From: a virus
Virus record (IMG/VR): IMGVR_UViG_3300042934_000822
Coordinates: 1-64,000 of that record
Direction: 5' to 3' (one strand)
Length of the DNA: 64,000 bases
Under the pieces are notes generated by a model. That model was given only the letters and a program-made list of their open reading frames with translations, was not told where the DNA came from and made no database searches. Positions within the stretch are counted from its first letter, which is position 1. The number at the start of each line of letters is the position of its first letter. The position numbers and the translations under genes were made by a program. Shown in pieces: positions 1 to 60,334 of the stretch.

Positions 1-55
1 ATTGGGCCAGGCGGCTCTCCTCCTCAGGCGCGGGGGGTGTGGTCTGGTTATCCAT
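1..55 (-). CDS. Partial hypothetical protein, N-terminus only
   Basis: Only the first 18 codons lie in the window; the gene runs off the left edge. The start ATG is at 55-53 with GGAG a few bases upstream (GGAGAACCACC before the ATG). The visible peptide begins MDNQTTPPAPEEESRLAQ and is polar and proline/glutamate-rich. It lies 63 bases downstream of the DUF1643 gene on the same strand and could be the last part of that operon. No function can be assigned. Confidence 0.5.
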   Translation of the reverse strand, partial: MDNQTTPPAPEEESRLAQ

Positions 56-118
56 GGTGGTTCTCCGACTGTTCCAAGTCTTGATGTTGTTTCAGGTGGC
101 GACCGCGTGCGTTACGAG

Positions 119-613
119 TCATGGAGCACCCCAGGGAATCAAGGGCGTGGCGTAGGCCAGCATCTGCACATGCTTAGGTTGCTGGCAGGCAGTAAGCCCG
201 AAGTGCTTGACGGGCTTGCCGCTGGCCAGCAGTTGCGCCAGGACAGTGTCGAGCATGTGACGCATGTGCTTTGGGATCTTCGCCGAGGCGCCCCAGCACG
301 GCACCAGCACGTCAGCATCCTTGATGATCTGCGTGAAGTGCTCTGCCCACTGCGGGCCTTGAGCCGTCATGGTCGTATGGGCCGCCAAGTGCTTGATATC
401 CTTCGAGCGGATCGAGAAGACGTTGGCCACTATGAGGCGGCGGCCGCCATTGCGTTCGGTAAACCCGATCCACTTGCGGAGGGTCGCATCGTTCAGCACG
501 GCGTCAGCGGTCGACGGGTTGATACCGATGTAGGCGTATACCAGACCCTCGGCCTGCACCTCGCGTTCCAGGCGGTACCGGTGGAGCTTGCATGGACTGA
601 AAATCGCGCTCAT
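119..613 (-). CDS. DUF1643 family protein
   Basis: A 164-residue protein. The ATG at 613 was chosen because it overlaps the stop of the upstream gene by four bases (ATGA), and the upstream extension has no conserved character. The sequence has the DUF1643 pattern: YIGINPSTADA near residue 30, then LRKWIGFTERNGG, then VANVFSIRS. This family is a small cytosolic domain common in phages and plasmids whose biochemical role is not established. It is the third gene of an operon starting near 1840. Family assignment is confident; no function is claimed. Confidence 0.8.
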   Translation of the reverse strand: MSAIFSPCKLHRYRLEREVQAEGLVYAYIGINPSTADAVLNDATLRKWIGFTERNGGRRLIVANVFSIRSKDIKHLAAHTTMTAQGPQWAEHFTQIIKDADVLVPCWGASAKIPKHMRHMLDTVLAQLLASGKPVKHFGLTACQQPKHVQMLAYATPLIPWGAP

Positions 614-7661: not shown

Positions 7662-8627
7662 ATGTTCTTCAAAAACCTGCTGACCTACCGGCTGACACAG
7701 CGCGTGGCCCTGGACGTCGACACGCTCGAGCATGCGCTGGCCAGCAAAAAGACGCGCGAGCCGGCCAACCAGGAGCTGAGCACTTACGGCTTCACAGCGC
7801 CCTACGGCAAACATGAGGATGCACCCTTGGTGCATGCCAGTCACGGCTACGTGTTGATCGCCGCACGTAAGGTCGAAAGGATCCTGCCAAGCGGATCGGT
7901 AGCCCAAGAGGTTCGCAAGCGCATTGAGACGATCGAGGCCGAGCAGATGCGCAAGGTCTACAAGGCCGAGCGGGACCAGATCAAGGATGAAGTGATCCAG
8001 GCCTTCCTGCCCCGGGCTTTCCTGCGTGAGAAAGTGACCTATGCGGCCATTGACGCCGAGCGCAACCTGATCCTGGTCAACACCGCCAGCGCCAAGACTG
8101 CCGAGGATTTGCTCTCAACACTGCGAGAGGTGCTCGGCTCGCTGCCGGTGCGACCAGTGGCTGTCAAAATTGCGCCTACGGCCACCTTCACCGACTGGCT
8201 CAAGACCCAGTCACCTGCAGAACACTTCTACGTGGGTGACAACTGCGAACTGCACGATGTGGCCGAGGGTGGCGGCGTGGTGCGTCTCAAGGGTCAGGAC
8301 TTGATGGGTGAGGAAGTCCAGCTGCACCTGAGCACCGGCAAGGTGTGCGCACGTCTGGCGCTGACCTACAAGGACGAGCTCTCCTTTGTGCTGAACGATC
8401 GGCTGACCCTGTCCCGGTTGAAGTTCGAGGCCCTGCTCACAGAGAAAGCGGCCCATGACGGCGGTGACGATGATGCTGGGCACTTCGACGCCAGCTTTGT
8501 GCTGATGATGGCAACGCTGCGTGCCTTCTTGCCCTATCTGTTCGAGGTCCTGGGCGGCGAGGACGTACCGCAAGGTGTTGGGCTGCCCGAAATGATCACC
8601 ACCTTGGGCGGCCGGCCGGCGGCCTGA
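7662..8627 (+). CDS. rdgC: Recombination-associated protein RdgC
   Basis: A 321-residue homologue of RdgC, slightly longer than the E. coli protein (303). The N-terminus [18 protein letters not shown] matches the family start, followed by the conserved [10 protein letters not shown] region, a central alpha-helical [15 protein letters not shown] stretch and [20 protein letters not shown]. RdgC forms a ring-shaped dimer on DNA and restrains RecA filament activity. On a mobile element it may tune recombination together with the ssb in the same operon. A terminator follows at 8658. Confidence 0.92.
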
Positions 8628-9540: not shown

Positions 9541-9882
9541 ATGCACACTTTGCCGCTATTTGTAGTTGTTGGGGCGCTGGTTTTTATCTATCGAAAATAT
9601 AATCCAGCCAACCAGCCGAATATATTGCTGCACAAGTTTCAACGGCGGTTAAGAGTGTGGTTGGGCGCTTTCATTTTTATCGTGCTGCTGCTGATTGGCT
9701 ACACCGCTCCGGCCAGCGTTGGCCATCTGCTGGCGAGCATCCAGGCGAACCAGCTCGAGCAGATCGCTCAGCGGCAGGAGGCTAGACAGGCGTCAGAATT
9801 ACGACACGTCCAGGCGATGATCGAGGTGCTGGGAGGGCCAGACAACTATTTGGCGTACGAAAAACGACACCGAGCACTATAG
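9541..9882 (+). CDS. Small membrane protein (113 aa)
   Basis: Start ATG 9541 follows AAGGGG. A hydrophobic N-terminal segment (LPLFVVVGALVFIY) and a second at about residues 38-55 (LGAFIFIVLLLIGYTAP) predict two membrane passes, followed by a glutamine-rich helical, probably coiled-coil tail. It could be an inner-membrane exclusion or anchor protein, but nothing in the sequence identifies it. Confidence 0.6.
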   Translation: MHTLPLFVVVGALVFIYRKYNPANQPNILLHKFQRRLRVWLGAFIFIVLLLIGYTAPASVGHLLASIQANQLEQIAQRQEARQASELRHVQAMIEVLGGPDNYLAYEKRHRAL

Positions 9883-10042
9883 CGGCAAAATTTCTATACC
9901 ACTCGTCGCTAAAACCCCTTCCGCCCGGAACTTTCTCATGCCACCCTTCACAAACCAAGCATGCGAGGATGGGGTCAATGTGTGGGACCGGATTTCCCCC
10001 GACCCTCGTCAGCCCTTGCGCGGTAGGCTCTAGAGCGTTTCA

Positions 10043-10067
10043 TGACGCGGATATTATATCCGCGTCA
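10043..10067. promoter_or_regulatory. Perfect ACGCGGATA palindrome upstream of the integrase
   Basis: TGACGCGGATAT at 10043-10054 and its exact complement at 10056-10067 are separated by one base, a 12-bp-arm palindrome. Its centre contains a TATTAT/TATAAT-like -10. Each arm carries the core of the ssb-promoter operators. The rest of the 323-base gap 9883-10205 shows no convincing gene; an attachment site could lie here but I cannot identify its core. Confidence 0.55.
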
Positions 10068-10205
10068 ATTCCGGCGAATGTCTCGCCTTTGCTCTAGGCT
10101 TAGACCTGTTCCATTCAAACTCAAACGTCTTTCGATTCACCAGGTCTGGAACCGTCGCATGCAGCTCGAAGCCCCCATTAACACAGCACACACGAAGGCA
10201 GAACG

Positions 10206-11438
10206 ATGTCCCTTACTCAGAAGGTTATTCAAAACATAACCACGCCGGGAAAGTATCAAGACAAGTATGGTCTAGCCTTGCGCGTCTCTCCGGGCGGCTC
10301 TAAAGCCTGGATTTTGAGGTACACGTTCAACGGCGTGCGGCGTGATGACGGCCTGGGAAAGTACCCTGACGTCTCGCTGGCCGAAGCACGCGAGACGGCC
10401 ATGGCCATGAGGCTCAAGGCAGGTAAGGGGATAGACCCGCGCCAGGAGAAGGCAGAGCGGGCCAAGGCCGCTACCACGTTCGAGGAGGCAGGCAATGCCT
10501 TTATCGCGCGGCACCGGCACGGATGGTCGGAGGCGCACATCCATCAGTGGGAAGCGTCCCTGCGCGACCATGTTTACCCAAAAATTGGCAGAACCCCTGT
10601 GCACGCCATCGACACGGAAACCGTGAGGACCGTGCTCGACGTGATATGGCACGAAAAGCCTGAAACAGCGCGGCGCGTGCGTAACAGGATTGAGCGGATC
10701 CTGGACTACTCAAAGGCGCTCGGCCACCGCGAAGGCGACAACCCGGCCCGCTGGCGTGGTCACCTGCAGAACATCATGTCCACGCTGCTGCCCACCCCTA
10801 CTCCCCTCGAGTCAATGGATTATCGAGTATTGCCAGCTTTCATGCGGCGGCTTGATGCGGAAGATTCGCGCGCCGCGCGCTGCCTGCAGTTCCTGATCCT
10901 GACGGGTTGCCGCAGCAAAGAGGCAATGGACGCGCGGTGGGACGAGATCGATTGGGAGCGACTGGTGTGGCGCATTCCGGCCGAGCGGATGAAAAGCCGC
11001 GAGCTGCATGAGATCCCGCTGAGCGATGCGGCGTTGGCTGTCCTGAAAGAGGCCGGTACCCGGGGCCGCAGCGACTACATTTTCGCCAGCAAGAACCTCA
11101 AGGCGCCCATGGCCAACAACTCGTTGCGCCGCCTAATGACCAAGCTGGGCGAGGACTGCACGGTGCACGGGTTCCGCGCTACCTTCCGCACCTGGCTGCA
11201 GGAGAAGACCGATTTCTCCAACGAATTGTGTGAGGCTGCGCTGGCACATGCCGTGGGCACCCTGACGCAACGGGCTTACACCCGGGGTAAGCAGTTGGAG
11301 AAACGTCGGCCGATGATGGATAAATGGGCGCGTTTTGCGGTGGAAAAGCTGGTGACGCCCACGCCAAGGCCAACCGTGAATTCAATGGCGGCGGCTCGCA
11401 CACCACGCATTAAAAACGAGTGCACCGTCCGGCCCTGA
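10206..11438 (+). CDS. int: Tyrosine-type site-specific integrase
   Basis: A 410-residue tyrosine recombinase of the P4 type. Residues 1-85 are the arm-type DNA-binding domain (YGLALRVSPGGSKAW and LGKYPDVSLAEAR). The core-binding domain spans about 90-190 and the catalytic domain 205-375. The catalytic set is complete: Arg236 (TGCRSKEA), a candidate Lys263, His321 and Arg324 (HGFRATFRTW), His348 and Tyr358 (RAYTRG). It would integrate the element into a chromosomal target or resolve multimers. GAAGG precedes the ATG. Flanked by the palindromic operator upstream and a long hairpin downstream. Confidence 0.95.
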   Translation: MSLTQKVIQNITTPGKYQDKYGLALRVSPGGSKAWILRYTFNGVRRDDGLGKYPDVSLAEARETAMAMRLKAGKGIDPRQEKAERAKAATTFEEAGNAFIARHRHGWSEAHIHQWEASLRDHVYPKIGRTPVHAIDTETVRTVLDVIWHEKPETARRVRNRIERILDYSKALGHREGDNPARWRGHLQNIMSTLLPTPTPLESMDYRVLPAFMRRLDAEDSRAARCLQFLILTGCRSKEAMDARWDEIDWERLVWRIPAERMKSRELHEIPLSDAALAVLKEAGTRGRSDYIFASKNLKAPMANNSLRRLMTKLGEDCTVHGFRATFRTWLQEKTDFSNELCEAALAHAVGTLTQRAYTRGKQLEKRRPMMDKWARFAVEKLVTPTPRPTVNSMAAARTPRIKNECTVRP

Positions 11439-29899: not shown

Positions 29900-32800
29900 C
29901 TACAGAGTGTCAGCCGTGACCTTCAACGCATAGTCACGCAGCGCGTTGGACGCATCGGCAAACAGGTCTTTCAGCTCAGCCTCACCCCATTGGGCGTAGA
30001 TCTCCTCGAGCCTGGCCAGCACCTCGGCGGGGCTTCCCAGGTCAGTCGTTCCTTCGATCAGGCTATCGAGATAGGCCTTTGCTGCTTTCAATTTGTCATC
30101 CTCGTCTGGCTCCGGGGGCGTCGATTGGTCAGGCTCGGCGGCGGCGGCCGGCGCTGGGGCAGCGAACATATCGCCTTGGTCGATGGCAAACAAGCCTTCA
30201 CCGTACTCCTGGTCAAGCTTGCGGTTGGCCGCGCCCACAATGTCCGTGAAGCTGACAGCAGCGTCGCCGAACAAGCCTGCCGTCTGCTTGCGGGCGTTTT
30301 CGCTTTCCACGAACTGGGCCATAGCCTTGAACGCGGTCCCCATGCGCTTGGCACTGCGATTGTTCTGGTGGATGAACATGGCCATGGCTGCCACGGCAGG
30401 ATCGGTACCACCGAACATATCGCCCTGGCGCAGGAACTCGTCCAGGCCCAGGCCGGCCTCCTTCGCCTGGCGCAGCACGTTGGTAGCGCCGATGATGGCG
30501 TTGACGGCCTCCTGATTGAGCGATAGCTCAACGGAGTCGGTAACACGGCCGCCAGCCTCCTCGGCACCAACCAGGTCGACCTCCTTGGCGCGCATGAAGT
30601 CTGGAGCGGCGCTGTTGAGTGCAGCCACGATGTTGGCGATCTCAGGCTTAGCGACGTCCGCGGTCATTTCCAGGAGGCGATCATCGGAGTAGGCGCCAGC
30701 GAACAGCGCAGCCTGCAGGCGGCTGATCAGGCCGCTGGTGGGCTTGCCCTCGGTGGTCAGGTACTGGGCAGCCTCCGCGTCACCCAGCGACTGCAGGAAG
30801 GCTGCAACGAAGTCACGGTTTGCTGCGCTGTTGAGGTCTCCGTCTGCCAGCTTGGCCAGCATGGCGGTGTCAAGCCGCTTGGCATCGCTGCGCGCCTTCT
30901 CCGTGGCAGTCATGGCCAACTTATCATCCTGGTTGGCCTCGACAGCGAACGTCACACGATCGACGTCAGACCTGCGCACGCGCACCAGGACAGGGTTCTG
31001 CATGCGGTTGATCTTCTCCACGTCTACCCCGAAGTACTCCGCGTTCTCTACGAGCCATTCACGGTAGTCACCAGCAGAGCCGATCCGGTAGGCCTCTCGG
31101 ATCGCCATTGCGCGGCCGTTGCCCGACTCCACTACTCGATCAGGCCCAACGATGGGGGCACCGCTGTCGGCACGCTGGGTGCGCCCCAGGCTGTCTGGGT
31201 CGAGGCTGCGTGCAGTTTTTTGGACCCAGGCCTGCGAGGTGCTGCGGGAGCGGTCGCGCGGCTGGATCTCTGCGGGGTAGTCAGGATTCGGTGTGCCGTC
31301 GCTCTCATGGCTGATCACCAGCTTGCCTGCCTCGATGACCTTGAAACCGGTCAGCACCTTGGTGCCCTTGGCCGTCTTCACGGTGTTGTCGCGGCCTTCC
31401 GCCTCAATGGTACCGGTGTCCTCTTGCTCGGCCTTGAGCGCAGCGTTGGCGGTCCGTTCGGCACGCTCCTCCTCGCGCTCTGCAAGATGCGCCGCCAACA
31501 TGGCTTCCTCCTGAGGCGTTTCAGGCTCGACGGTGGCCGCTGCCTGCACGGCAGCTGCTGCCTGTGCTGGTGTCTTCCCTGCAGCGAACAGCTGGTCCAC
31601 CAGAGACTCCTGAGGCATGGCCATCGCATCCGCATCACCGTGACTGATCTCCATGCGCTCTGCTAGCGCTTCCAGGAACAGTTCCTGCCACGCATTACGC
31701 TCTGCAGGCGCAGCCGCTGGCGGCAGGGTGGTAGATGCTGGCGCACTCTTCCGGGCTGCCAACTGGGCGGTCAGATCCTCGATCTGCTTGTCCAGCTCGG
31801 CCAGCTCGTCCGTCTTTGCAGATTCCGCCTCTTTCAATGCCGCAAGCTGGGCATCGCGCTCGGCTTTATTGGCATTGGCCTGGGTGAACTTGGCGCTGTT
31901 CTTGTCGACCAGCCTGATGATGCGTCGGGCAACCTCACGCGGGTTGAGATCCTGGCCACGCTCGGGCGCCACCACGATCGTGACGTCCTTCTTGTTGAGC
32001 ACCCACTTCCAGCTAACCATCTCGTCGGTGGGACTCAGCTTGTTGGGGGTGGTGTCGGGGTTGTGGAAGAACACGCTGACGGACTGGCCATCGTCCATCG
32101 TGAACAACATGGCCAGCTGCGTGGTGCCTCGATTCTTGAATGCTTTGCTGACCTGGACGCCTTCTGGCTTCACTTGGGTCGCAACCATCTGCATGACGCG
32201 CAGCAGCTGGTTGGCCTTGCGCTCGAATTGCTGCACCTGGATCACCATGGCATCGAGCATGGCGCCATCGCTCATGAACTCCTCGAGGTCGGACAGGGTG
32301 GCCGCGTCCATCATCAATCCGCCACTGTCGTGACGGCGCAGCTTGGCGATCACGTCGCCAAGGGTCTCGCCTACAGGCATGCGCTGATCGTCCCAGCGCA
32401 CGATTACGTCGGTCATGCTTACCGCCTTGTCTTCAATGAGATCGCCAGGCACAAGCGGCCGGCGCAGATCACCGTGCTTGAGCCAGTCCTTGAACTGCTT
32501 GATGCTGCAGGCCGTCAGGCTGGCCAGCCCGGTCCAGCCCTTTTCGTAGCTGTTGAGATAGGCCTGGCGCGCCTGCTCCTCGTCAGTGAACCCCAGCAGC
32601 ACCTTGTGCTCATCGAAAGCACCAGTCTTGTCCTGCTGGTTGACGACAAAGACCTGCAGGCTCTCAGGCATGGGGCCGATGAACACGTCTACCGCGTCGC
32701 CGTCGGCGCCCACGGTGCCGTTGATGTAGCCGTAGTGGGCCATGCACACGACTGACCAGGGGGCCCCATCCGTTTTGCCTCGACGAGGCTGGAACATGGG

Positions 32801-32953
32801 CGTTTCGATGGTGACGGTCATGCCGTGAAGACGCGTGCTGCCCTTCGAGTAGTTGCCGGCGCGGAGCTGCTCAGGCGTGGGAGTGGCGCGGGAGCCTGCG
32901 CCGAATGCGCCGGAATGGGCCGCGCCCTGTAGTGCTGCGAATTTGTCTGCCAT
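29900..32953 (-). CDS. Polyvalent protein: pyrophosphatase-like, DarA-like and DdrB/ParB-like domains (1017 aa)
   Basis: Start ATG 32953 (MADKFAALQG) after GAGGCG. Residues 10-160 resemble the inorganic-pyrophosphatase-like domain of polyvalent proteins (SRLHG, GADGDAVDVFIG, DEHKVLLGF). Residues 225-350 resemble the DarA N-terminal region seen also in the 331-residue gene. A coiled coil spans 355-400. Residues 530-700 form a DdrB-like ParB-superfamily domain with GNGRAMAIREAY at 611-622. MMDA (214) and MLDA (232) words lie between the first two domains. Inferred role: packaged anti-host or genome-protection protein. Confidence 0.8.
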   Translation of the reverse strand: MADKFAALQGAAHSGAFGAGSRATPTPEQLRAGNYSKGSTRLHGMTVTIETPMFQPRRGKTDGAPWSVVCMAHYGYINGTVGADGDAVDVFIGPMPESLQVFVVNQQDKTGAFDEHKVLLGFTDEEQARQAYLNSYEKGWTGLASLTACSIKQFKDWLKHGDLRRPLVPGDLIEDKAVSMTDVIVRWDDQRMPVGETLGDVIAKLRRHDSGGLMMDAATLSDLEEFMSDGAMLDAMVIQVQQFERKANQLLRVMQMVATQVKPEGVQVSKAFKNRGTTQLAMLFTMDDGQSVSVFFHNPDTTPNKLSPTDEMVSWKWVLNKKDVTIVVAPERGQDLNPREVARRIIRLVDKNSAKFTQANANKAERDAQLAALKEAESAKTDELAELDKQIEDLTAQLAARKSAPASTTLPPAAAPAERNAWQELFLEALAERMEISHGDADAMAMPQESLVDQLFAAGKTPAQAAAAVQAAATVEPETPQEEAMLAAHLAEREEERAERTANAALKAEQEDTGTIEAEGRDNTVKTAKGTKVLTGFKVIEAGKLVISHESDGTPNPDYPAEIQPRDRSRSTSQAWVQKTARSLDPDSLGRTQRADSGAPIVGPDRVVESGNGRAMAIREAYRIGSAGDYREWLVENAEYFGVDVEKINRMQNPVLVRVRRSDVDRVTFAVEANQDDKLAMTATEKARSDAKRLDTAMLAKLADGDLNSAANRDFVAAFLQSLGDAEAAQYLTTEGKPTSGLISRLQAALFAGAYSDDRLLEMTADVAKPEIANIVAALNSAAPDFMRAKEVDLVGAEEAGGRVTDSVELSLNQEAVNAIIGATNVLRQAKEAGLGLDEFLRQGDMFGGTDPAVAAMAMFIHQNNRSAKRMGTAFKAMAQFVESENARKQTAGLFGDAAVSFTDIVGAANRKLDQEYGEGLFAIDQGDMFAAPAPAAAAEPDQSTPPEPDEDDKLKAAKAYLDSLIEGTTDLGSPAEVLARLEEIYAQWGEAELKDLFADASNALRDYALKVTADTL

Positions 32954-33036
32954 GGCTGTCGCCTCGGATGAAAGCACACACGATATAGGGCCAGGAAGGG
33001 CACTTTCGGGCAGGCTTTCCGCCGATCGGCAGGCAC

Positions 33037-33065
33037 AAAAAAGGCGCCTCAATGGGCGCCTCATT
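33037..33065 (-). terminator. Intrinsic terminator after the par-linked small gene
   Basis: Minus strand AGGCGCCCATTGAGGCGCCT with a following TTTTTT. It separates the 97-residue gene from the polyvalent gene. Confidence 0.75.
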
Positions 33066-33079
33066 GCCAACTTGCCAAC

Positions 33080-33457: not shown

Positions 33458-34117
33458 TTATTCCGTGCCCTCGAGCAGCGACAGTACGTTGTTCATGATG
33501 AGGGTGATTTCATCGACCGCAGCCTGGTCGCGGGGCTTGTACTCGAAGACTGACTGGCCCACGCCCGCGCTCTCCGGATACGCGACGCGCTGGACCACGA
33601 TGCCTTCGATGACTGGCAGCTCGAAGACCTCGATTTCGCTCTGGATGTTCTTCGCTCGGTTGGTGCCCTGAATCACACGGGTCAGGACGAATGCAGCCTT
33701 GAGGGAGCGCGACACGTCCGCCAGCATTTCCTGGCGGTCCTTGATCATGTTGACCAGGTCTTCGGATGCCCAGACGTCGAGCTTCGAAGGCTGAACAGGG
33801 ATCAACACCAGGTCAGCAGCCTTGACGGCGGCCTCGGCCAGCTTGTTGGCCTTCGAAGCGCCATCGATGACCACATAGTCGTTCTTGATTCGGGAGACTT
33901 CACGCGAGAGCAGTTCCGGGCGATCGATTGCATAGATGCGCACCGTCTCCTGATCATCCTCTCGGGCTGCCGCCCAGTCGCGGGCAGTCCCTTGAGGATC
34001 GGAGTCAACCAGCACCACGTCCATACCCTGACGGCTCATGGCGTCGACCAGGTTGTACGACAGGGTGGTTTTGCCGGCGCCGCCCTTGGGCTGCAGGACC
34101 GCAATGACCTTTGGCAT
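33458..34117 (-). CDS. parA: ParA-family partition ATPase
   Basis: A 219-residue ParA/MinD-type ATPase of the short (type Ib, ParF-like) class without an N-terminal DNA-binding domain. The deviant Walker A motif KGGAGKTT is at 11-18, Walker A' VVLVDSDPQGTARDW at 34-48 and Walker B around DYVVIDGASK. ParA dimers on the nucleoid move plasmid copies apart with a centromere-binding partner. Start ATG 34117 follows GAGG; the leader carries ATTCAGCCAGATAA and the promoter two clusters of GCGC repeats, so transcription is probably autoregulated. Confidence 0.93.
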   Translation of the reverse strand: MPKVIAVLQPKGGAGKTTLSYNLVDAMSRQGMDVVLVDSDPQGTARDWAAAREDDQETVRIYAIDRPELLSREVSRIKNDYVVIDGASKANKLAEAAVKAADLVLIPVQPSKLDVWASEDLVNMIKDRQEMLADVSRSLKAAFVLTRVIQGTNRAKNIQSEIEVFELPVIEGIVVQRVAYPESAGVGQSVFEYKPRDQAAVDEITLIMNNVLSLLEGTE

Positions 34118-34130
34118 GAAGAAACCTCGA

Positions 34131-34228
34131 TTATCTGGCTGAATGAGGCCGGCACTATAACTGCAAAGCGCGTTCGTGCGAACCCTCCAACGCACAAAAG
34201 CGCGTTCGCGCCAAAGCGCCTTAGCGCC
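34131..34228 (-). promoter_or_regulatory. parA promoter: leader element, TATAGT -10 and GCGC repeats
   Basis: Minus strand order: AAAGCGCGTTCGCGCC-type repeats at 34228-34163 (several copies), TATAGT at about 34160-34155, then ATTCAGCCAGATAA (34144-34131) and the parA ribosome site. This is the clearest example of the repeated promoter module. Confidence 0.6.
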
Positions 34229-50989: not shown

Positions 50990-53900
50990 TCACAGGCTGC
51001 GAGCAGTGCCGCCCATGCCAATCCCACCCGTTGCAGCGTGCGCGATGGCACGGTCGCTGATGTTCTGGCTCAGCGGCGCCAGGACCTGACCTGCCGGCGC
51101 TGCTGGCGTCTTACTCGGCGCTGGCATCGGCTTGGCCACTTGGGGCGTTGCCGGGATCCGCGCATGCGAGGCATCCGGCGCCGGCGCGCTGTAGCTTGGC
51201 ACCTTGATCGGCGGCACCGCGGCTGGGGCGGAACCACTGACCATGGCTGGCGCACGCGCCTGCACGCTGGCAGGGTTGGCCGCCGGCGTCACAGGCGCCA
51301 GCGATACCGGCGTCATAGGCATCATCCCCAGCGGCATGCTGCTGCCTTTGGCGGCAACCTGCAGCGGCGTTGGCCCTGCCATCACGCCCATCCCGGCGAG
51401 CATCGACCCACCTGGTGCGCCGGTGGTGCTGCCGGCGTTGAGAGCACCAGGCGCGGCAGGAGTGGCTGCCATGGCGCCAGGACTTCCTGGAACGCTGACC
51501 GGGGTCTTTACCAGCGGAGTGGCCAGGGCCTCGAGCGACAGCGCCGCCCCGACCTTGGGCGCAGCGGCGCCGTTCTTCTGGCCGGCCGCTGCGAGAACGC
51601 CGACCGGTCCTGCTGCAGCGCCAGCAGGTTGCCCCTTCACCTTGGCCAGGGTGCTGCCGATCGCGCCCATGGCAGTCTTGGGCGCCGCCACGCGCACGTC
51701 GTCAGCCTTGCGGGTAGGCGTCAGGTCGCCAGCATTGGCCTGGGCCAGGTACCCTTCGTATTTGGCTTCGACGTCGCTCCAGCCATTGGTGCCTCCGTTG
51801 GTACGCCTGCGCGCGCCCTTGATATCCCCCCGTGTTGCAAGCTCGTTGGCGCCGGAATCCTTCCAGTGCTGGACCGCGATCTGTGCCGAGTACCTGGGGT
51901 CGCTGGCCAGCTCGGGGTTGTTGACCAGGTCGATGCCCAGCTTCTGGCCCATCCGCTCGTATTGGTCACGCCCGGTCAGCTGAATGTCGCCACGACCCCT
52001 GTACTTGAACCCATCACCAGGATCCTTGTTGCCCATGCGGCCGCCGTATACGCGATTCGCGATCGCCTCAGGGTTGCCGGCATCGGCCCGGGCGGTCTCG
52101 GCGTCCTTGTAGTACTTGGGGAAGACCTCCTGCAGGCGCTTGGCGCTGTAGTTGAGGTTCTCGCCCTTCGCCTTGAAGCCTCCCGACTCATGGTCCACGT
52201 TGGCCATGAGCGCCGCCTTGGATTTCTCATCGGTGATGCCGCCGGCGTCCATGGCCTTGATCAGCTCATCCTTGCGGGCGTTGGAGCCGCCCGTGTACCG
52301 GCCGCCGCTGATCTTGTACAGCGCGTTCTGCTTGACGTCCTGGATCGAGGCGCGCTTTTCGTTGATGTAGTCGCGTGCGGTATAGGCCTTGTCCTGTACG
52401 GTGTCCTTGGCACTCCTGTAGGTCGATACGACCTTCTCTCTTGCCTCGGTGAACGTCTCGACCAGCTTGTCTTTGACGTTGTAGTAGGCGTCGGCGACCT
52501 TGCCCCACGACTCTTTCGCCCAGTCGGCCATGCCGCTGATCATGCTCGAGCCGGCCGCTACCACGCTGCTCCAACCGTCCTTGACAGCTGTGAACGAGTC
52601 GCTGGCCATCTTGAAGGCGCCATCGGCTACGGTGGTCCAGGCGCTCGAGATATCGGCCATCATACCGGTCATGTCGACCGTGCTCAGCCACTCGCCCACC
52701 GCCGTGCCCAGCTGGTCACCCAGCATGTTGCCGACGATCGCACCAGCAGGGCCGCCAACCATCCCCAGCGCGCCCCCCAATACGCCGCCAGCCAGGCCGC
52801 CCATGGCACCCCAGCGATCGGCCTTCTGTGCACGCTGCTCCTCAGGTGTTGCGTTCGGGTCATCCTTGGCCATAGCTGCTTGCGCAAAGAGGCCGGCACC
52901 GAGCACAGCGCCCAGAACCGGTATCTTGGTCAGTAGCTTCTTGCCCACCTTGCCTGCGCCGCGCGCCGCGCGCGCCGCCTTGGAGGCTCTCGACGGTGCG
53001 CCCGCCTCCTCACCCAGGCCTGCGCGGGTTGCGCGCCCGCTGCCCTCGGCAACGACCTCTGCAGGTGCTGTTCGGCCTGCACGTCGGCTTCGAATGGCAG
53101 CGCGTTTTTCCTTGGCCCTGGCTGCATCTGGACTGCTGGCCGTGCCGGAGCCGGCGCTCGAAGCCGCTGTCCGGCTTGAGGTGCTGCCAGGCCTGGTGCT
53201 GGTGCGCGATTCGAAACGGCCGGTCTCCCGGTTACGGGTGATGTGCCGCGCTTCGGCCGCTCGCCGCCCCCGCCTGTCGATCGCTTGCCGGCGTGCATTC
53301 GCGCCCTGGCCACGCCGGCCTCCATCAGCACCGCGAGTCCCCCGTCGGCCTCGGCCACCACGATCGCCACGGCCACGCAGGCCGCCCAGCCCTTTGGCCA
53401 GCCCACCAAGAGCACCCAACGCCTTGAGCATACCTGTCATGCGGGCAAGCGCGCGCAACGGCGACAGCAGCATCCCCAGCATCGACAGCAGCCCCGTCAG
53501 CACCAGGCCCATGCCACGGCCGCCACTCTTCTTGTTGCCCTCGCGCAATTCGCCCCAGATCCGGCGGTACCAGACTACGGCCTGGCGCTGGCGCTTGTCC
53601 TCAGGCGTGCGCCCCATCCCGAACAGGCGACCGAGCGGCTTCACTGCGCCCACGACTGGCGAGACGATCCCCCCCAGTTCCTTGGCCGCCGTTACTGCAG
53701 GATCGACGTTGTCAGCACCATGGCTCAAGCCATCGGCCACGCTCTTGAGCGACTCGGAGGCCGCCCCCATGGCCTTGGAGGTGCGCGTTTCGCTAGAGCC
53801 TGCGTCTTCCCGGTCCCCCGAACCGAAGCGTCCATCTGCCCCGCGCCGGCGCTGAGCGGAATGCCCCGCCTCTGGGGCTTCCTGGTCGGCGCCAGCACGT

Positions 53901-54643
53901 TCAAACCGCCCTTGGGCATCACGCCGGCGGCCCTGCTCCTCAGCCGCGATGCGCGCCTGGCGCGGGTCAGCGATGATTGGGTCACCAGTGGGCAGGGGCA
54001 CATGCGCGGGCGTACCCGGGGCGGCCGAGGCAAAGCGCCCTTGCTCATCACGCGCCTGGCGATGAGTGGACCCCGAGGTGTCAGGTGCAGCGGCAGAGGT
54101 AGTCGCGGAAGGTGGTGCACCGGGAGCTACTGCAGGCGGTGCTGGTGCTGCACGCGTGTCTTCGCCCGCGCCCGGGTTCTGCGCCAGTGGCCGGCCGCCA
54201 GGCTGGGATGCGGCGCCCGGGGCAGACACTGTCGCTGTAGAGGTAGCTGGCCCCGGGGCAATGGGTGCGACCGAGGCTGGTGCGTGCGCCACGATGATCG
54301 GCTCAATGTCGATCGGCGGCACGTCGACCTGCACTGCAGGCGCAGGGCCTGCCGAGGCCGGCTTCTCGGCAGCGGCACCTGGTAGGGCCGGGGCGATCAT
54401 TGCCAGTCCGGAACGCTCGTCGGGCCCGCGCGGCGGCATCGGCGGCCGGTTGGGCTCCACTGGCTTGAATGCGTTGGCCGAATTGACCGCGTCGACCAGT
54501 CTGCCCAGCTGCTCGACCGTCTCCTCGGTGTTCCCACGGATCTCGCGCAGCAGCGCCAGCTCGCGCGCGATCTTGTCCAGGTCGTCAGTTACCTTGGGGC
54601 CGACCAGGAAGCCCCCGGCGTCATGGTTGAGTTCTCTGGTCAT
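50990..54643 (-). CDS. Tape-measure-type protein with GH19 lysozyme domain (1217 aa)
   Basis: A 1217-residue protein. Residues 1-350 are disordered and charged. Residues 365-650 include amphipathic and hydrophobic helices (GMGLVLTGLLSMLGMLLSPL, GAMGGLAGGVLGGALGMVGG) as in tape measures. Residues 780-1000 form a GH19 chitinase/lysozyme-like domain with the catalytic Glu in DHESGGFKA, VYGGRMGNKDPGDGFKY and GRGDIQLTGRDQYERMG. Thus the ruler of tail length also degrades peptidoglycan during DNA entry. A proline/alanine-rich tail follows. Placed immediately before the head protease gene. Confidence 0.75.
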   Translation of the reverse strand: MTRELNHDAGGFLVGPKVTDDLDKIARELALLREIRGNTEETVEQLGRLVDAVNSANAFKPVEPNRPPMPPRGPDERSGLAMIAPALPGAAAEKPASAGPAPAVQVDVPPIDIEPIIVAHAPASVAPIAPGPATSTATVSAPGAASQPGGRPLAQNPGAGEDTRAAPAPPAVAPGAPPSATTSAAAPDTSGSTHRQARDEQGRFASAAPGTPAHVPLPTGDPIIADPRQARIAAEEQGRRRDAQGRFERAGADQEAPEAGHSAQRRRGADGRFGSGDREDAGSSETRTSKAMGAASESLKSVADGLSHGADNVDPAVTAAKELGGIVSPVVGAVKPLGRLFGMGRTPEDKRQRQAVVWYRRIWGELREGNKKSGGRGMGLVLTGLLSMLGMLLSPLRALARMTGMLKALGALGGLAKGLGGLRGRGDRGGRGRRGTRGADGGRRGQGANARRQAIDRRGRRAAEARHITRNRETGRFESRTSTRPGSTSSRTAASSAGSGTASSPDAARAKEKRAAIRSRRAGRTAPAEVVAEGSGRATRAGLGEEAGAPSRASKAARAARGAGKVGKKLLTKIPVLGAVLGAGLFAQAAMAKDDPNATPEEQRAQKADRWGAMGGLAGGVLGGALGMVGGPAGAIVGNMLGDQLGTAVGEWLSTVDMTGMMADISSAWTTVADGAFKMASDSFTAVKDGWSSVVAAGSSMISGMADWAKESWGKVADAYYNVKDKLVETFTEAREKVVSTYRSAKDTVQDKAYTARDYINEKRASIQDVKQNALYKISGGRYTGGSNARKDELIKAMDAGGITDEKSKAALMANVDHESGGFKAKGENLNYSAKRLQEVFPKYYKDAETARADAGNPEAIANRVYGGRMGNKDPGDGFKYRGRGDIQLTGRDQYERMGQKLGIDLVNNPELASDPRYSAQIAVQHWKDSGANELATRGDIKGARRRTNGGTNGWSDVEAKYEGYLAQANAGDLTPTRKADDVRVAAPKTAMGAIGSTLAKVKGQPAGAAAGPVGVLAAAGQKNGAAAPKVGAALSLEALATPLVKTPVSVPGSPGAMAATPAAPGALNAGSTTGAPGGSMLAGMGVMAGPTPLQVAAKGSSMPLGMMPMTPVSLAPVTPAANPASVQARAPAMVSGSAPAAVPPIKVPSYSAPAPDASHARIPATPQVAKPMPAPSKTPAAPAGQVLAPLSQNISDRAIAHAATGGIGMGGTARSL

Positions 54644-54644
54644 G

Positions 54645-55592
54645 TCAGAAGCGCCCGATTGCCCGGTTTACCAGATCCACGCCCCGCCGCAACAAGCCTT
54701 GCTGCTCTTTTTCTGCCTCCTCCTGGGGTGAGTTCTCGATCGGCGCAAGGGTCGCGTGCATGTAGTGGGCGGCACTGTCGAGCATTCCATGGGCGCGGTC
54801 TCGCGACAGGGTCGAGCCACGCTGGAACACGTCAGGCGCCGCTGCAGGTAAGAACGAGGTGCTGTCCATCATGGCGCCGCCGCCCTTGCGCAGCTCGGCG
54901 ATGTGCGACAGCAGCTTGGCGTTCTGGGTCACCAGGTCGTCGTTCAGCCGGCACTGGTGCAGGTAGCTGTCGCTCATGCCCTCCAGGGCGACGCCGCTGG
55001 CCTCTACCTGGGCGTCGCGCTCGGCCAGAATGCCGTCGATGCTGTCGAGCATGGCGCTGTACTCAGTGGCGAAGCTCTCACCCTGCAGAGCGCCTGCCTC
55101 CGTACTGTCCAGCATCGCGTCGTAGCCACGATTGGTGTCGTAGTTGGGGCTGCGCACGAAGTCCATGCCGAAGTAGTCTTTGGGCGTGCGCTTGCCGTTG
55201 ATCAGCGGGGCGAAAAAGACCGAACTGAATCCCCAGCTCTTGCCCTTGTACAAAGCCCGGGCGATACGTCCGGAGGGGGTGGGCAGAAACTCCTGCTGGT
55301 GCTCGATGGTGCCGTCAGGGTAGGCCTTGATCATCACCGTTTTCACGGTTGGTTCCAGCACCACGGTCCTGCCGCCTTCGATGACAACCTCAGGTGGCTG
55401 CAGGCCGTACTTTTCGCGGAAACAGTGCCCCACATAGCCGCAAAGGTCGCCCTTACGGACAGCCTCCTGCACCACCGGCCCGTTGAGCAGCAGGCACAGC
55501 GCTGGGATGTCGATGTCACGATCGGCGCCGGTGAATTCACGGCCTCGATCCTTCACGTTGTAGCGGATTACCTCGGTTCGGTTATCCATCAT
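54645..55592 (-). CDS. Prohead protease fused to a scaffold-like tail (315 aa)
   Basis: Residues 1-140 resemble T4 gp21-type serine prohead proteases. The His motif GDLCGYVGHC places His56, and LPTPSGRIARALYKGKSWGF then SSVFF places Ser123/124 in the conserved TPxGRI...GxSS context. Residues 150-315 are helical and charged like a scaffold. They contain four capsid-type cleavage words: MLDS 160, MLDS 181, MMDS 241 and MLDS 270, consistent with self-removal. It would cut the capsid precursor and internal proteins during head maturation. It lies between the portal (four-base overlap) and tape-measure genes. The family match is by motif only. Confidence 0.65.
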   Translation of the reverse strand: MMDNRTEVIRYNVKDRGREFTGADRDIDIPALCLLLNGPVVQEAVRKGDLCGYVGHCFREKYGLQPPEVVIEGGRTVVLEPTVKTVMIKAYPDGTIEHQQEFLPTPSGRIARALYKGKSWGFSSVFFAPLINGKRTPKDYFGMDFVRSPNYDTNRGYDAMLDSTEAGALQGESFATEYSAMLDSIDGILAERDAQVEASGVALEGMSDSYLHQCRLNDDLVTQNAKLLSHIAELRKGGGAMMDSTSFLPAAAPDVFQRGSTLSRDRAHGMLDSAAHYMHATLAPIENSPQEEAEKEQQGLLRRGVDLVNRAIGRF

Positions 55593-57196
55593 TCGTCCTC
55601 GTTGGTGTCTTGCGTCAGCGCGCGCTCTGGCGGCATCTGATCGTTGTCGTCATCGAAGCCCCCCAGCATCCCGCCCCCCATGCCCGGCGGTGCCGGCGGC
55701 TTGGCGTTCTTGAGCCCGTTGGTGAGGATCTTGGCGAAGTCGTGGTCTAGCTCGGACTTGATGAAAATCTGCTCTGCAGCCTCAGGCGGCAGGCCCAGGT
55801 CGCGCATGCCGGTCATCATCTGCACCAGCATCAGCGAGCCGTTGATCGCACGTTCCCGGCTGGCCTGCTTTTCGGCCTCGAGCGCTGCGATCGAGCCGTA
55901 GAAGTTGATGGCGTAGGGGCGACTGCTGTCGTCCCAGGTGCGCCCGTACTTGGCGATCATGTGTCGGTCGATCACGTCGTTGCAGTACGCTGTATAGGCG
56001 GTTCGAATGATGCGGGAGCGCTCGGCAGCCTGGCTGCTGGTGCGGTTGAACCCCCCTTCGCCAAGCCCACCGGTCAGCTGATCGGCAAAGCCGACCATGG
56101 ACAGGTCAATCCCGGCGGTACCAGCCAGCTTGCGGGCGTGAAACATCACGTCCTCGATGTTGGTACCGGCGCCGGAGTTGGACGTACCGTTGAACTGGCT
56201 AATCTGGGTAAGCTGCTTCTCGTTGTAGGTCGGCATGATGTGGAAGTTGCGGGAGGTGGCGTAACGCCCGGTCCGTACCGCCTCCTCGGCACGCTGCTTC
56301 ATGGCCTGTAGCATCCGCTCGAGCGAGCGCATGAAGCTGGCCTGCTGGTCAGCCGTCATATCGGTCATGTTGGCGCCCAGCATCGTCTCATCGATCGCGC
56401 CTGCGATTCGTTGGCCGACCAGGCCCCGGAGCGCCGCCTCCAGGTTGTCGAAGTCGGTTTCGGCGGCCTCCAGGAAGGAACCACCCACCTGCGCCGGCAA
56501 TGCCTCCATCTGCGAAGGGTCGTTCGACTCCAGGTTGATACGCTGGGCGTTCTCCACGGCCCGCATCTGCGCCAGGTAGCCCATGCGGGGCATCTTCATG
56601 CGCACCATGTCGATGTGGCTCAGGCGCGAATCGATCTTCTTGCCCAACGAGACCACGTAGGTGACCGTCTGGCCCAGGACCTCATAGGGCTGGACCAGGG
56701 GCGGGAAGATATCGGCGTTGAGCGCGTACAGGCCGTGGCCCTTGCGCACATAGAGGCGGGTGTAGGCGTCGCCATAGGCCGCTGCGTTGAAGCACACCTG
56801 GTGGGCGTTATCGTTGAAAAACGGCACCAGGCACTGCAGCTCCTCGATGATCTTCTTGTCGCCACTGGTGGCGCTCGGCTTGGGCTCGATGAAGATCGTT
56901 TCGCCTGTGGTCTCATGGCCACCCAGCGCCATCTGCACATGCAGGCGCAGGATGGTGTTCATCAGCCCGTCCTGGGCCATGTGGTGCCACTTACGGAAGA
57001 TTTCGACGCGCGTGCGGGCCGGCCGGTCGCCGTCGCCCATCATCACCTCGACGCCCACATAGTCGGCGTCGTAGGTCGAGACGGAATTCTGCATCGCAGG
57101 TTCAGCCACCTCGCCCAGGAGCAGCTGCGTAGTCGTCCTGGTGAGGCTGGCCAGGCTACTCATGAGCCTGCGCTTGGGTTTCGGTTGATCTGCCAT
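55589..57196 (-). CDS. Portal protein
   Basis: A 535-residue portal-type protein. It has the T4 gp20-like organisation: early beta region with YDADYVGVEVMMGDGDRPAR, IFRKWHHMAQDGLMNTILRL, then NAAAYGDAYTRLYVRKGHGL and a long central helical domain (RSLERMLQAMKQRAEEAVRTG) with GTSNSGAGTNIEDVMFHARK. It forms the dodecameric DNA channel at one head vertex. ATG 57196 was chosen (MADQPKPKRR); a TTG five codons earlier is possible. It overlaps the protease gene, as in many large phages. Confidence 0.82.
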   Translation of the reverse strand: MADQPKPKRRLMSSLASLTRTTTQLLLGEVAEPAMQNSVSTYDADYVGVEVMMGDGDRPARTRVEIFRKWHHMAQDGLMNTILRLHVQMALGGHETTGETIFIEPKPSATSGDKKIIEELQCLVPFFNDNAHQVCFNAAAYGDAYTRLYVRKGHGLYALNADIFPPLVQPYEVLGQTVTYVVSLGKKIDSRLSHIDMVRMKMPRMGYLAQMRAVENAQRINLESNDPSQMEALPAQVGGSFLEAAETDFDNLEAALRGLVGQRIAGAIDETMLGANMTDMTADQQASFMRSLERMLQAMKQRAEEAVRTGRYATSRNFHIMPTYNEKQLTQISQFNGTSNSGAGTNIEDVMFHARKLAGTAGIDLSMVGFADQLTGGLGEGGFNRTSSQAAERSRIIRTAYTAYCNDVIDRHMIAKYGRTWDDSSRPYAINFYGSIAALEAEKQASRERAINGSLMLVQMMTGMRDLGLPPEAAEQIFIKSELDHDFAKILTNGLKNAKPPAPPGMGGGMLGGFDDDNDQMPPERALTQDTNEDE

Positions 57197-57243
57197 GGAT
57201 TGGGTACGCAATAGGCCTGTTTGGGGTCCAGCGTACCGGCGCA

Positions 57244-58883: not shown

Positions 58884-59179
58884 CAGCGCACCTTCCGTGT
58901 TTCGGTGCTCAGGCCACACTTCTGCTTGAGGTAGCGCAGGTGCTCGGCCGTGGGCAGCACCAGGTTCTGCTCCTCGAGCACGGAGTCCACGGTGGCCAGG
59001 CCTGCTGCAGCCTGGATCGCCAGCGTTTCCTCAGGGTCGCCATACACGCGCCGCGCGACCAGGGTCAGGTCGAAACGCTCACTCGGCAGAGTACGCACCA
59101 CCTGGCGCGCGCCCGAATACGTGGGCTCTGTCACTGCGAACAGACGCACCTCACGGTAGAACCTGGAAACCTCAATCAC
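58883..59179 (-). CDS. Small tail-type protein, LysM-like impression (98 aa)
   Basis: A 98-residue protein with an N-terminal beta strand region (REVRLFAVTEPTYSG) and a segment FDLTLVARRVYGDPEETL followed by VDSVLEEQNLVLPT that recalls tail protein X / LysM-like baseplate proteins. First gene after the repA terminator region; the start codon ATG 59179 has GGAAAC upstream. The LysM assignment is tentative. Confidence 0.5.
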   Translation of the reverse strand: MIEVSRFYREVRLFAVTEPTYSGARQVVRTLPSERFDLTLVARRVYGDPEETLAIQAAAGLATVDSVLEEQNLVLPTAEHLRYLKQKCGLSTETRKVR

Positions 59180-59266: not shown

Positions 59267-60334
59267 TTACTCGGCGTCAGCCTCGTAGGAAGCACCGCGG
59301 CTGCTATCGGGCGACAGCTTCCACTTATCGGCCTGGGACCGGTGCACCATCCGCAGGATGGAGTCTGCCTTGCCCTGCTCCTCGGCCAAGGAGTAGTCCG
59401 GCAGGTTGTCGTCCTTGATGATGGCGCGGATCATGCGGTTGAACTCCTTCCGTGATCCCTGGCTTCCGCTGCGCTCGTAGATCGTGCCAAAGCTCCAGGC
59501 CGCCGAGTCCTTGCCTGCCGCGCGGCGCGCCAGGCGGTACACGAACCTGGCCAGGCCGCGCTCGATCTTGAAGTAGTCCGGATTGACCGTGAGCACCTCA
59601 GGCTGATGGCCTGCCGTGATCTCGTCGTACATCCACTGGGCGACCCGGAACTCAATGGCCTCGACCTTCTTGGTGCGCGGGTTGCTCAGCACCTTGAATG
59701 GCCCGATCAGGTTCTCGCCCTCGGTGATCGTCATGGGCTTGTCGCCCACGTTGCGGGTGCGCTCGATCTTGACGTGGGTAGTGCTCAAACGCTCCAGGGC
59801 GCCGACCACGGCGTCTTTCTGGTTGCCGCCATTGTCGCGTCGGCAGAAATTCAGCACGTCGGCGATCGCCGGCCGGAACACCTGGCCAGGCTTGGCTCCT
59901 TTGCCCTCACGGTGGCGGTTCATCGCCTCTGTGAGATGCGACACGGCCATCAGCACAATGTCGTAGTCGTAGACCGAGGCCATGCCCAACGGGCCAGACG
60001 TGACCTGCACGCCCCCATCGGGCAGCGTGTAGGTCAGGATCGTGTTGGCGCGCTTGTCGCTCTTGGAGAGTCGGAACACAGCGACGTCCATCACCGTCCT
60101 GCTATCGCGGCTTCCAACGTCGCACAGGACCGGCGCGTAAAAGTCAGCCTGAACCGGATCCTGGGACGCCACAGCCGCTTTCTTGCGAGGGGCCTTGGGC
60201 GCCGCCTTGCGAGCGGGCGCGGGCTTCTTCGGCGCGGCCTGGGGCTGAGGCTCGTCCAGGCCTTTCAACAGGTCGCCCTGGGCCTTCTTGGCCTGTAGCT
60301 CCAGCAATCGCTGCGCGTGCTTGTTGGTTGCCAT
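59267..60334 (-). CDS. repA: Plasmid replication initiator protein A (RPA family)
   Basis: A 355-residue initiator of the RPA type found on proteobacterial plasmids. Residues 1-55 are a basic lysine/proline/alanine leader. The conserved core runs from about 65 to 310: VFRLSKSDKRANTILTYTL, VTSGPLGMASVYDYDIVLM, FCRRDNGGNQKDAVVGALER, TVNPDYFKIERGLARFVYRL. It would bind the iterons at 60431-60660 directly upstream and open the origin with host DnaA. Finding it inside a virion gene cluster is the clearest evidence for a plasmid lifestyle. The ribosome site is weak, consistent with low-level expression. Confidence 0.9.
   Translation of the reverse strand: MATNKHAQRLLELQAKKAQGDLLKGLDEPQPQAAPKKPAPARKAAPKAPRKKAAVASQDPVQADFYAPVLCDVGSRDSRTVMDVAVFRLSKSDKRANTILTYTLPDGGVQVTSGPLGMASVYDYDIVLMAVSHLTEAMNRHREGKGAKPGQVFRPAIADVLNFCRRDNGGNQKDAVVGALERLSTTHVKIERTRNVGDKPMTITEGENLIGPFKVLSNPRTKKVEAIEFRVAQWMYDEITAGHQPEVLTVNPDYFKIERGLARFVYRLARRAAGKDSAAWSFGTIYERSGSQGSRKEFNRMIRAIIKDDNLPDYSLAEEQGKADSILRMVHRSQADKWKLSPDSSRGASYEADAE

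Follow-up and report, generated by a model that had tools for sequence, protein, structure and literature searches.

A tyrosine recombinase with a composite upstream site on a distant P1-like phage-plasmid: a probable dimer-resolution module of the TnpI/attI type

What would a complete tyrosine recombinase do on an element that already has a replicon of its own? The question arises from a virus record of 80,908 bases (IMG/VR, IMGVR_UViG_3300042934_000822), of which positions 1 to 64,000 constitute the 64,000-nucleotide stretch analyzed here, hereafter the window. A sequence-only reading had offered two answers, that the element alternates between plasmid and integrated states or that the enzyme resolves dimers as Cre does in P1, and had taken a palindrome lying upstream, over a -10 element, as a sign of strict repression. 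The gene and the palindrome look like a matched cut-and-rejoin pair, concerned with single-copy upkeep rather than with chromosomal insertion.

Judged from its gene content, the element is a distant P1-like phage-plasmid, with P1-type structural genes alongside genes for replication and partition (Table 1). When the portal protein was searched in 50,697 phage records, 24 matches were obtained; among the best 20 of the 24, 18 belong to P1-, P7- or SJ46-type phages of enteric bacteria (about 26%) and one each to Acinetobacter phage ABMM1 (32%) and Xanthomonas phage Rb1 (44%). A sheath gene, a PmgG-like head gene and DarA-like genes on the record agree with this P1 likeness. Likewise, the independent replicon that had been read from the letters is confirmed by an RPA initiator and a ParA-like ATPase. 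The ends of the record repeat over 277 bp with 99.3% identity (2 mismatches), which fits a circular or circularly permuted molecule; on account of the two mismatches, this repeat (window 1-277 and the record end) may also have arisen as an overlap in the assembly of a mixed population. Elsewhere in the window (29900-33070), a single protein of 1056 aa joins a pyrophosphatase-like domain, DarA_N and a ddrB-like ParB domain.

Within the family of this phage-plasmid, exactly one PF00589 gene occurs in each of the 15 records searched (one of them partial, 51 kb), as P1 has with Cre, while the RPA initiator is present in 9 of the 15. From these counts, replicons appear to have been swapped around a constant recombinase module. 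A similar pattern is described in the available part of a study of P1-like elements, where Cre is among the conserved genes and the partition and replicase genes are not (PMC10879196).

The recombinase is a full tyrosine integrase, as had been claimed, whose Arm-DNA-bind_3 (residues 3-84), Phage_int_M (92-186) and Phage_integrase (210-360) domains, all above the Pfam cut-offs, are in Pfam terms the arm-binding, core-binding and catalytic domains. Residues R236, K263, H321, R324, H348 and Y358, which we take from the general motif of the family to be the catalytic six, are kept in all 35 recombinases of the clade described below, so that under this assignment the catalytic residues are indeed intact. 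A catalytic domain with R, K, HxxR, H/W and Y makes the protein a member of PF00589, and the N-terminal Arm-DNA-bind_3 followed by a central Phage_int_M places it among the P4-type integrases; its closest solved domains are those of phage and CP4-like integrases.

Upstream of the gene, TGACGCGGATATTATATCCGCGTCA forms a palindrome at 10043-10067 with 12-bp arms flanking one base. A search allowing up to three mismatches locates it once in the window and never in 100 shuffles; a second att-like copy, sought across the window, was not found. The exact core pattern is present in 5 stretches among 2.9 million viral contigs, all from the phage-plasmid family of the window, a count that may omit a record very near the window. 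In an alignment of the upstream regions of 20 relatives, the core (arms GGATA/TATCC), a tandem repeat of TGTGGG type and a box resembling CTCGTCG stand out from otherwise diverged DNA. In the window, one copy of the tandem repeat is degenerate (ATGGGG, 9969-9974) and the other full (TGTGGG, 9981-9986), and 58 bp separate the repeat from the heptamer arm of the core (10045). The box that follows the core has the consensus-like form CGGCGAAATCT in relatives, NAH7 among them. An att-like core thus does stand near the gene, and it is the palindrome itself: the pattern of arms, spacer and tandem repeat suits a recombination-site core better than the operator proposed earlier.

Table 1. Coordinates of the features discussed (window positions unless a locus is named; overlap borders of the core follow the conservation profile)
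Feature	Position	Strand	Basis
RdgC homologue, upstream marker for contiguity	7662..8627	+	Pfam
Conserved box ACCACTCGTCG, 5' of tandem repeat	9898..9908	+	20 upstream regions aligned; spacing
Tandem arm-type repeat	9969..9986	+	composite-site scans; 40 distinct sites compared
Palindromic core of proposed recombination site	10043..10067	.	pattern scans; 40 distinct sites compared
Core arms (9 bp each)	10043..10051, 10059..10067		
Core spacer (overlap), 7 bp, TATTATA	10052..10058		
Conserved box 3' of core, window form CCGGCGAATGTCT	10071..10083	+	upstream alignment; site comparison
Tyrosine recombinase, 410 aa	10206..11438	+	Pfam; catalytic residues in 35/35 clade members
ParA-like partition ATPase	33458..34195	-	profile searches
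Portal protein, P1 type	55589..57211	-	phrog_1497; tblastn
Replication initiator (RPA, PF10134)	59267..60334	-	in 9/15 family records searched
Tus-like gene, locus L022	9169..10194		
Tus-like gene, locus L023	9172..10197		
Tus-like gene, locus L137	4175..5206		

How widely does this composite site accompany the enzyme? Under a strict rule (tandem repeat, a gap of 52-65 bp, then 7-bp arms flanking 7 bp), it lies upstream of 32 of the 35 recombinases in the clade, which belong to 20 phage-plasmids, 14 plasmids and 1 contig (L107). A looser rule adds L028 and L040, bringing the number to 34, and the sole member without the site, L138, has unrelated sequence at the expected place. Outside the clade, two loci matched the strict rule: L003, whose tandem repeat is paired with another core, and L076, at one stray position. 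Simulated sequence gave no match to the strict rule in 3.13 Mb; the loose rule gave 4 in 3.37 Mb, against 53 in real DNA (50 at expected loci and 3 at places of other kind). Of 30 further loci from Pseudomonadaceae genomes, scanned for the site and left out of the tree, 17 have it, one being L107 fetched again.

In a quick maximum-likelihood tree of 131 recombinases, with no inferred root and with SH-aLRT as the only support measure, the 34 site-bearing rows and L138 fall on one branch (SH-aLRT 95), inside which the 20 phage-plasmids group at 100 and the 15 others at 99. The tree omits two fragments starting at or in int (L029 and L066), two entries that are records of L014 and L032 (L010 and L015) and the helper loci. 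On it, the site needs 2 changes, compared with a mean of about 30 under shuffled labels. Among the closest named relatives, the recombinase of Pseudomonas plasmid pKF715C, which is also the only match of a flanking-DNA search of plasmids, is 75% identical and those of two Pseudomonas plasmids of about 81 kb are 57% identical. Site-bearing plasmids with recombinases 40-47% identical have listed neighbour genes that look unrelated. Sequence comparison thus shows that the composite site is associated exclusively with recombinases of this clade.

The variation among sites is instructive as well. Forty distinct sites carry 26 different 7-bp spacers, the middle of the spacer being the most variable part (entropy up to 1.85 bits), whereas the GA/TC adjoining it, two bases per side, is invariant. 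Arm position 3 is mirrored in 31 of the 40, mainly G with G or C with C, and the distance from tandem repeat to core stays at 56-60 bp. Six loci, NAH7 and pCAR1 included, have an identical 33-bp core region in common. A free spacer with concerted arms is what would be expected if two protomers of the same enzyme bind the arms and the partner is the site's own copy; in turn, spacer drift speaks against a chromosomal partner, since a fixed partner would keep the spacer constant. As TATTATA in the window nearly equals its own reverse complement, polarity would need the one-sided tandem repeat. In plasmid pA62H2 (L023), the spacer is TTCGAAC, with the core about -76 from int, and resembles a tRNA T-loop; by this resemblance it might mark a tRNA-targeting form, past or present.

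Altogether, these sequence data make it probable that the module is a dimer-resolution system of the TnpI/attI type standing in place of Cre/lox. The gene and some 110 bp at 9969-10083 would constitute a self-contained site-specific recombination module, in which recombinase protomers would occupy the palindromic core at both arms, strand exchange would take place across the 7-bp spacer, and the N-terminal domains of the protomers would contact the TGTGGG-type tandem repeat on one side. This one-sided repeat would give direction to a nearly symmetric site and favour directly repeated copies, so that phage-plasmid dimers would be resolved to monomers, to the benefit of plasmid stability. Incoming phage DNA with terminal redundancy may also be cyclized by the same reaction, a task that Cre/lox performs in P1. 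By analogy, the module most likely works like Cre/lox yet outside that family, and the Cre-like resolution raised in the sequence-only reading gains weight from the conserved composite site, the drifting spacer and the unbroken gene order. A Tus-like terminator-binding gene, which adjoins the recombinase gene tail to tail on three Pseudomonas plasmids, also suggests replicon upkeep, and the two could possibly be the plasmid counterpart of the neighbourhood of Ter/Tus and dif/Xer.

Some observations count against this reading: the first copy of the tandem repeat is degenerate in the window, the site of the NAH7/pCAR1 group is about 500 bp from the gene rather than adjoining it, and a palindrome whose centre varies freely is likewise consistent with a dimeric repressor. 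Moreover, resolution may not be the sole role, because the TnpI of NAH7 reportedly carries genes from one replicon to another.

NAH7 deserves closer inspection in this respect. It has exactly one PF00589 gene, with a composite site at 58,915-58,937, about 500 bp before that gene, whose tandem repeat and CGGCGAAATCT box keep the same spacing as in other sites. According to the available part of a review, the tyrosine recombinase encoded on Tn4655 of NAH7 moves a catabolic cluster between replicons (PMC13343209), and by elimination the single PF00589 gene must encode that enzyme, TnpI. From the tandem repeat to the last box, the composite site is about as long as the attI known from this transposon. 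In a 2006 study TnpI reportedly recombined two attI sites, both inter- and intramolecularly, attI being said to lie within 119 bp and the exchange within 30 bp.

The alternative that survives best, though we consider it unlikely, is that the main role is fusion or exchange between replicons by attI x attI recombination, with resolution as a by-product. It could draw on the identical 33-bp core region present on different replicons (the six loci above), on the traffic of the catabolic cluster by the Tn4655 recombinase in the same review (PMC13343209), and on pDTG1, which has another, shorter gene for a recombinase on the far side of its nah genes. However, pDTG1 and NAH7 have a single composite site each, and gene order in the phage-plasmid family is unbroken at the site. 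This second gene of pDTG1 (53634-54590; L188 4635-5591) is of NAH7 type and is without a composite site of its own. NAH7 and pDTG1 were also examined for break points left by natural recombination, and showed no clear break at the spacer. A broader version, in which the 7-bp spacers would be address labels by which matching replicons (phage-plasmids, conjugative and catabolic plasmids) fuse and separate at their sites, is an equally long shot.

It is slightly less probable still that the palindrome serves a repressor of the integrase gene as its operator and is no recombination site at all. Such an operator would account for a palindrome that is almost perfect, lies upstream of the gene and has TATTAT at its centre, and free centres occur in operators too. 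Nevertheless, the site accompanies the recombinase across plasmids that otherwise look unrelated in their listed neighbour genes, its tandem repeat keeps a constant 56-60 bp from the core, and on NAH7 and pCAR1 one gene and as much as 500 bp separate it from int. Furthermore, no promoter pair of sigma-70 type was found when 9850-10250 was scanned for the consensus; of the palindrome said to overlie a -10, the palindrome is real, but the -10 is weak and amounts to the TATTAT hexamer inside it. Repression by the recombinase binding to its own site would be possible, by analogy with resolution sites elsewhere, where the available parts of two papers report it (PMC6312765, PMC7157771).

Could the enzyme instead be a true phage integrase, the element alternating between plasmid and chromosome by recombination of the core with a chromosomal attB? 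The arm-binding domain is as in P4-type integrases, and integration does occur among outgroup relatives. Of 60 viral contigs in the outgroup, 27 begin no more than 100 bp from int by hand count, as those of cut-out prophages would. Outgroup integrase L076 has a symmetric core whose half-site plus spacer (537-550) coincides with the terminal bases of the Pseudomonadaceae tRNA-Ser(GCT), a tRNA-Ser gene end being found in 3 of 3 loci checked. Used as a positive control, these 14 bases were found in 28 of 59 Pseudomonadaceae genomes, once each (the reversed pattern in 3 of 59), while the corresponding half-site plus spacer of the window, ACGCGGATATWATA, taken with either half, was found in none of 398, although an attB with weak similarity would escape such a search. 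The closest recombinase in these 398 genomes does not exceed 47% identity, which implies that the phage-plasmid form is absent there, integrated or not, and that the negative attB result carries limited weight. The 17-bp core with up to two mismatches occurs in 2 of 25 genomes, below the 4 of 25 of its reversed control.

Moreover, the gene order across the core is unbroken in all 20 informative records of the family, with rdgC upstream and lysis or tail genes downstream (pKF715C being read across the record start); the test covers the 20 of 22 records that show both sides of the core, L029 and L066 being left out since they begin at or inside int. No tRNA gene was detected in the window or in the 34 clade loci. 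In a further set of 58 loci taken from genomes, 4 have a tRNA gene near int and 16 have the composite site; tRNA proximity, at 0 of 34 clade loci against 4 of 58 in that set, was rejected as a separator of the groups. The plasmid/integrated alternation, and the chromosomal junctions that it would leave, thus find no backing in the genomes searched, in the gene order or in a spacer that drifts freely, and chromosomal integration, which is not supported, is the least likely of the readings considered here.

The kind of system is already known from one transposon; what is added here is its stable presence on P1-like phage-plasmids, the composite site and the spread of that site. In the available portions of the literature on Tn4655/TnpI, IncP-7, Tn4430 TnpI, phage-plasmid recombinases and integrases, and pKF715C, the module on P1-like phage-plasmids was not found described. 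P1-like phage-plasmids outside enteric bacteria may solve the dimer problem without Cre/lox, by a different enzyme and site, and this enzyme-site pair is common to them and to well-known degradative plasmids. The composite site provides a defined sequence for cloning and testing. It also accounts for the frequent annotation of arm-domain integrases on plasmids of Pseudomonas, and stresses that an integrase gene alone does not prove chromosomal integration. The laboratory toolbox could gain a recombinase of distinct selectivity if resolution is confirmed; if the address-label network were true, plasmid genes could travel in phage capsids and phage-plasmids could gain conjugative cargo.

Compared with known systems, Cre/lox of P1 offers the closest parallel in setting: one tyrosine recombinase on a P1-type phage-plasmid, one PF00589 gene per record, and a site upstream, the P1 record starting with lox, followed by cre (436-1467) and ref (at 2077). 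The lox site consists of 13-bp arms, listed as a repeat in that record, around an 8-bp spacer, and has no accessory sites. Whereas Cre is without an arm-binding domain and acts on this simple 34-bp site, the enzyme of the window has such a domain and P4-type relatives, and its site is composite, with accessory repeats.

The irs sites of Tn4430 and Tn5401, on which their TnpI acts, combine direct and inverted repeats that share a motif. The layout resembles that of the window, namely an inverted-repeat core, direct repeats on one side and a position upstream of the recombinase gene, but repeat and arm motifs differ from each other in the window. The available part of one paper gives two inverted repeats and two one-sided direct repeats upstream of the gene for these transposons (PMC7157771).

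Arm-DNA-bind_3 integrases of prophages and islands have the same domains and form the outgroup of the tree. They differ in that the strict-rule composite site is absent upstream: L003 has the repeat with another core, and L076 a core of tRNA-Ser type.

The best match is TnpI/attI of Tn4655 on NAH7, for which alone, to our knowledge, a function is known within this comparison. The two recombinases are 40% identical over their length and belong to one clade (SH-aLRT 95), and the same layout lies upstream of both: a tandem TGTGGG-type repeat, 57-58 bp, the core and a CGGCGAAATCT-type box. The module of the window differs in residing on a P1-like phage-plasmid, in core arms and spacer unlike those of NAH7, and in a site about 160 bp from its gene with no gene between, as against about 500 bp on NAH7.
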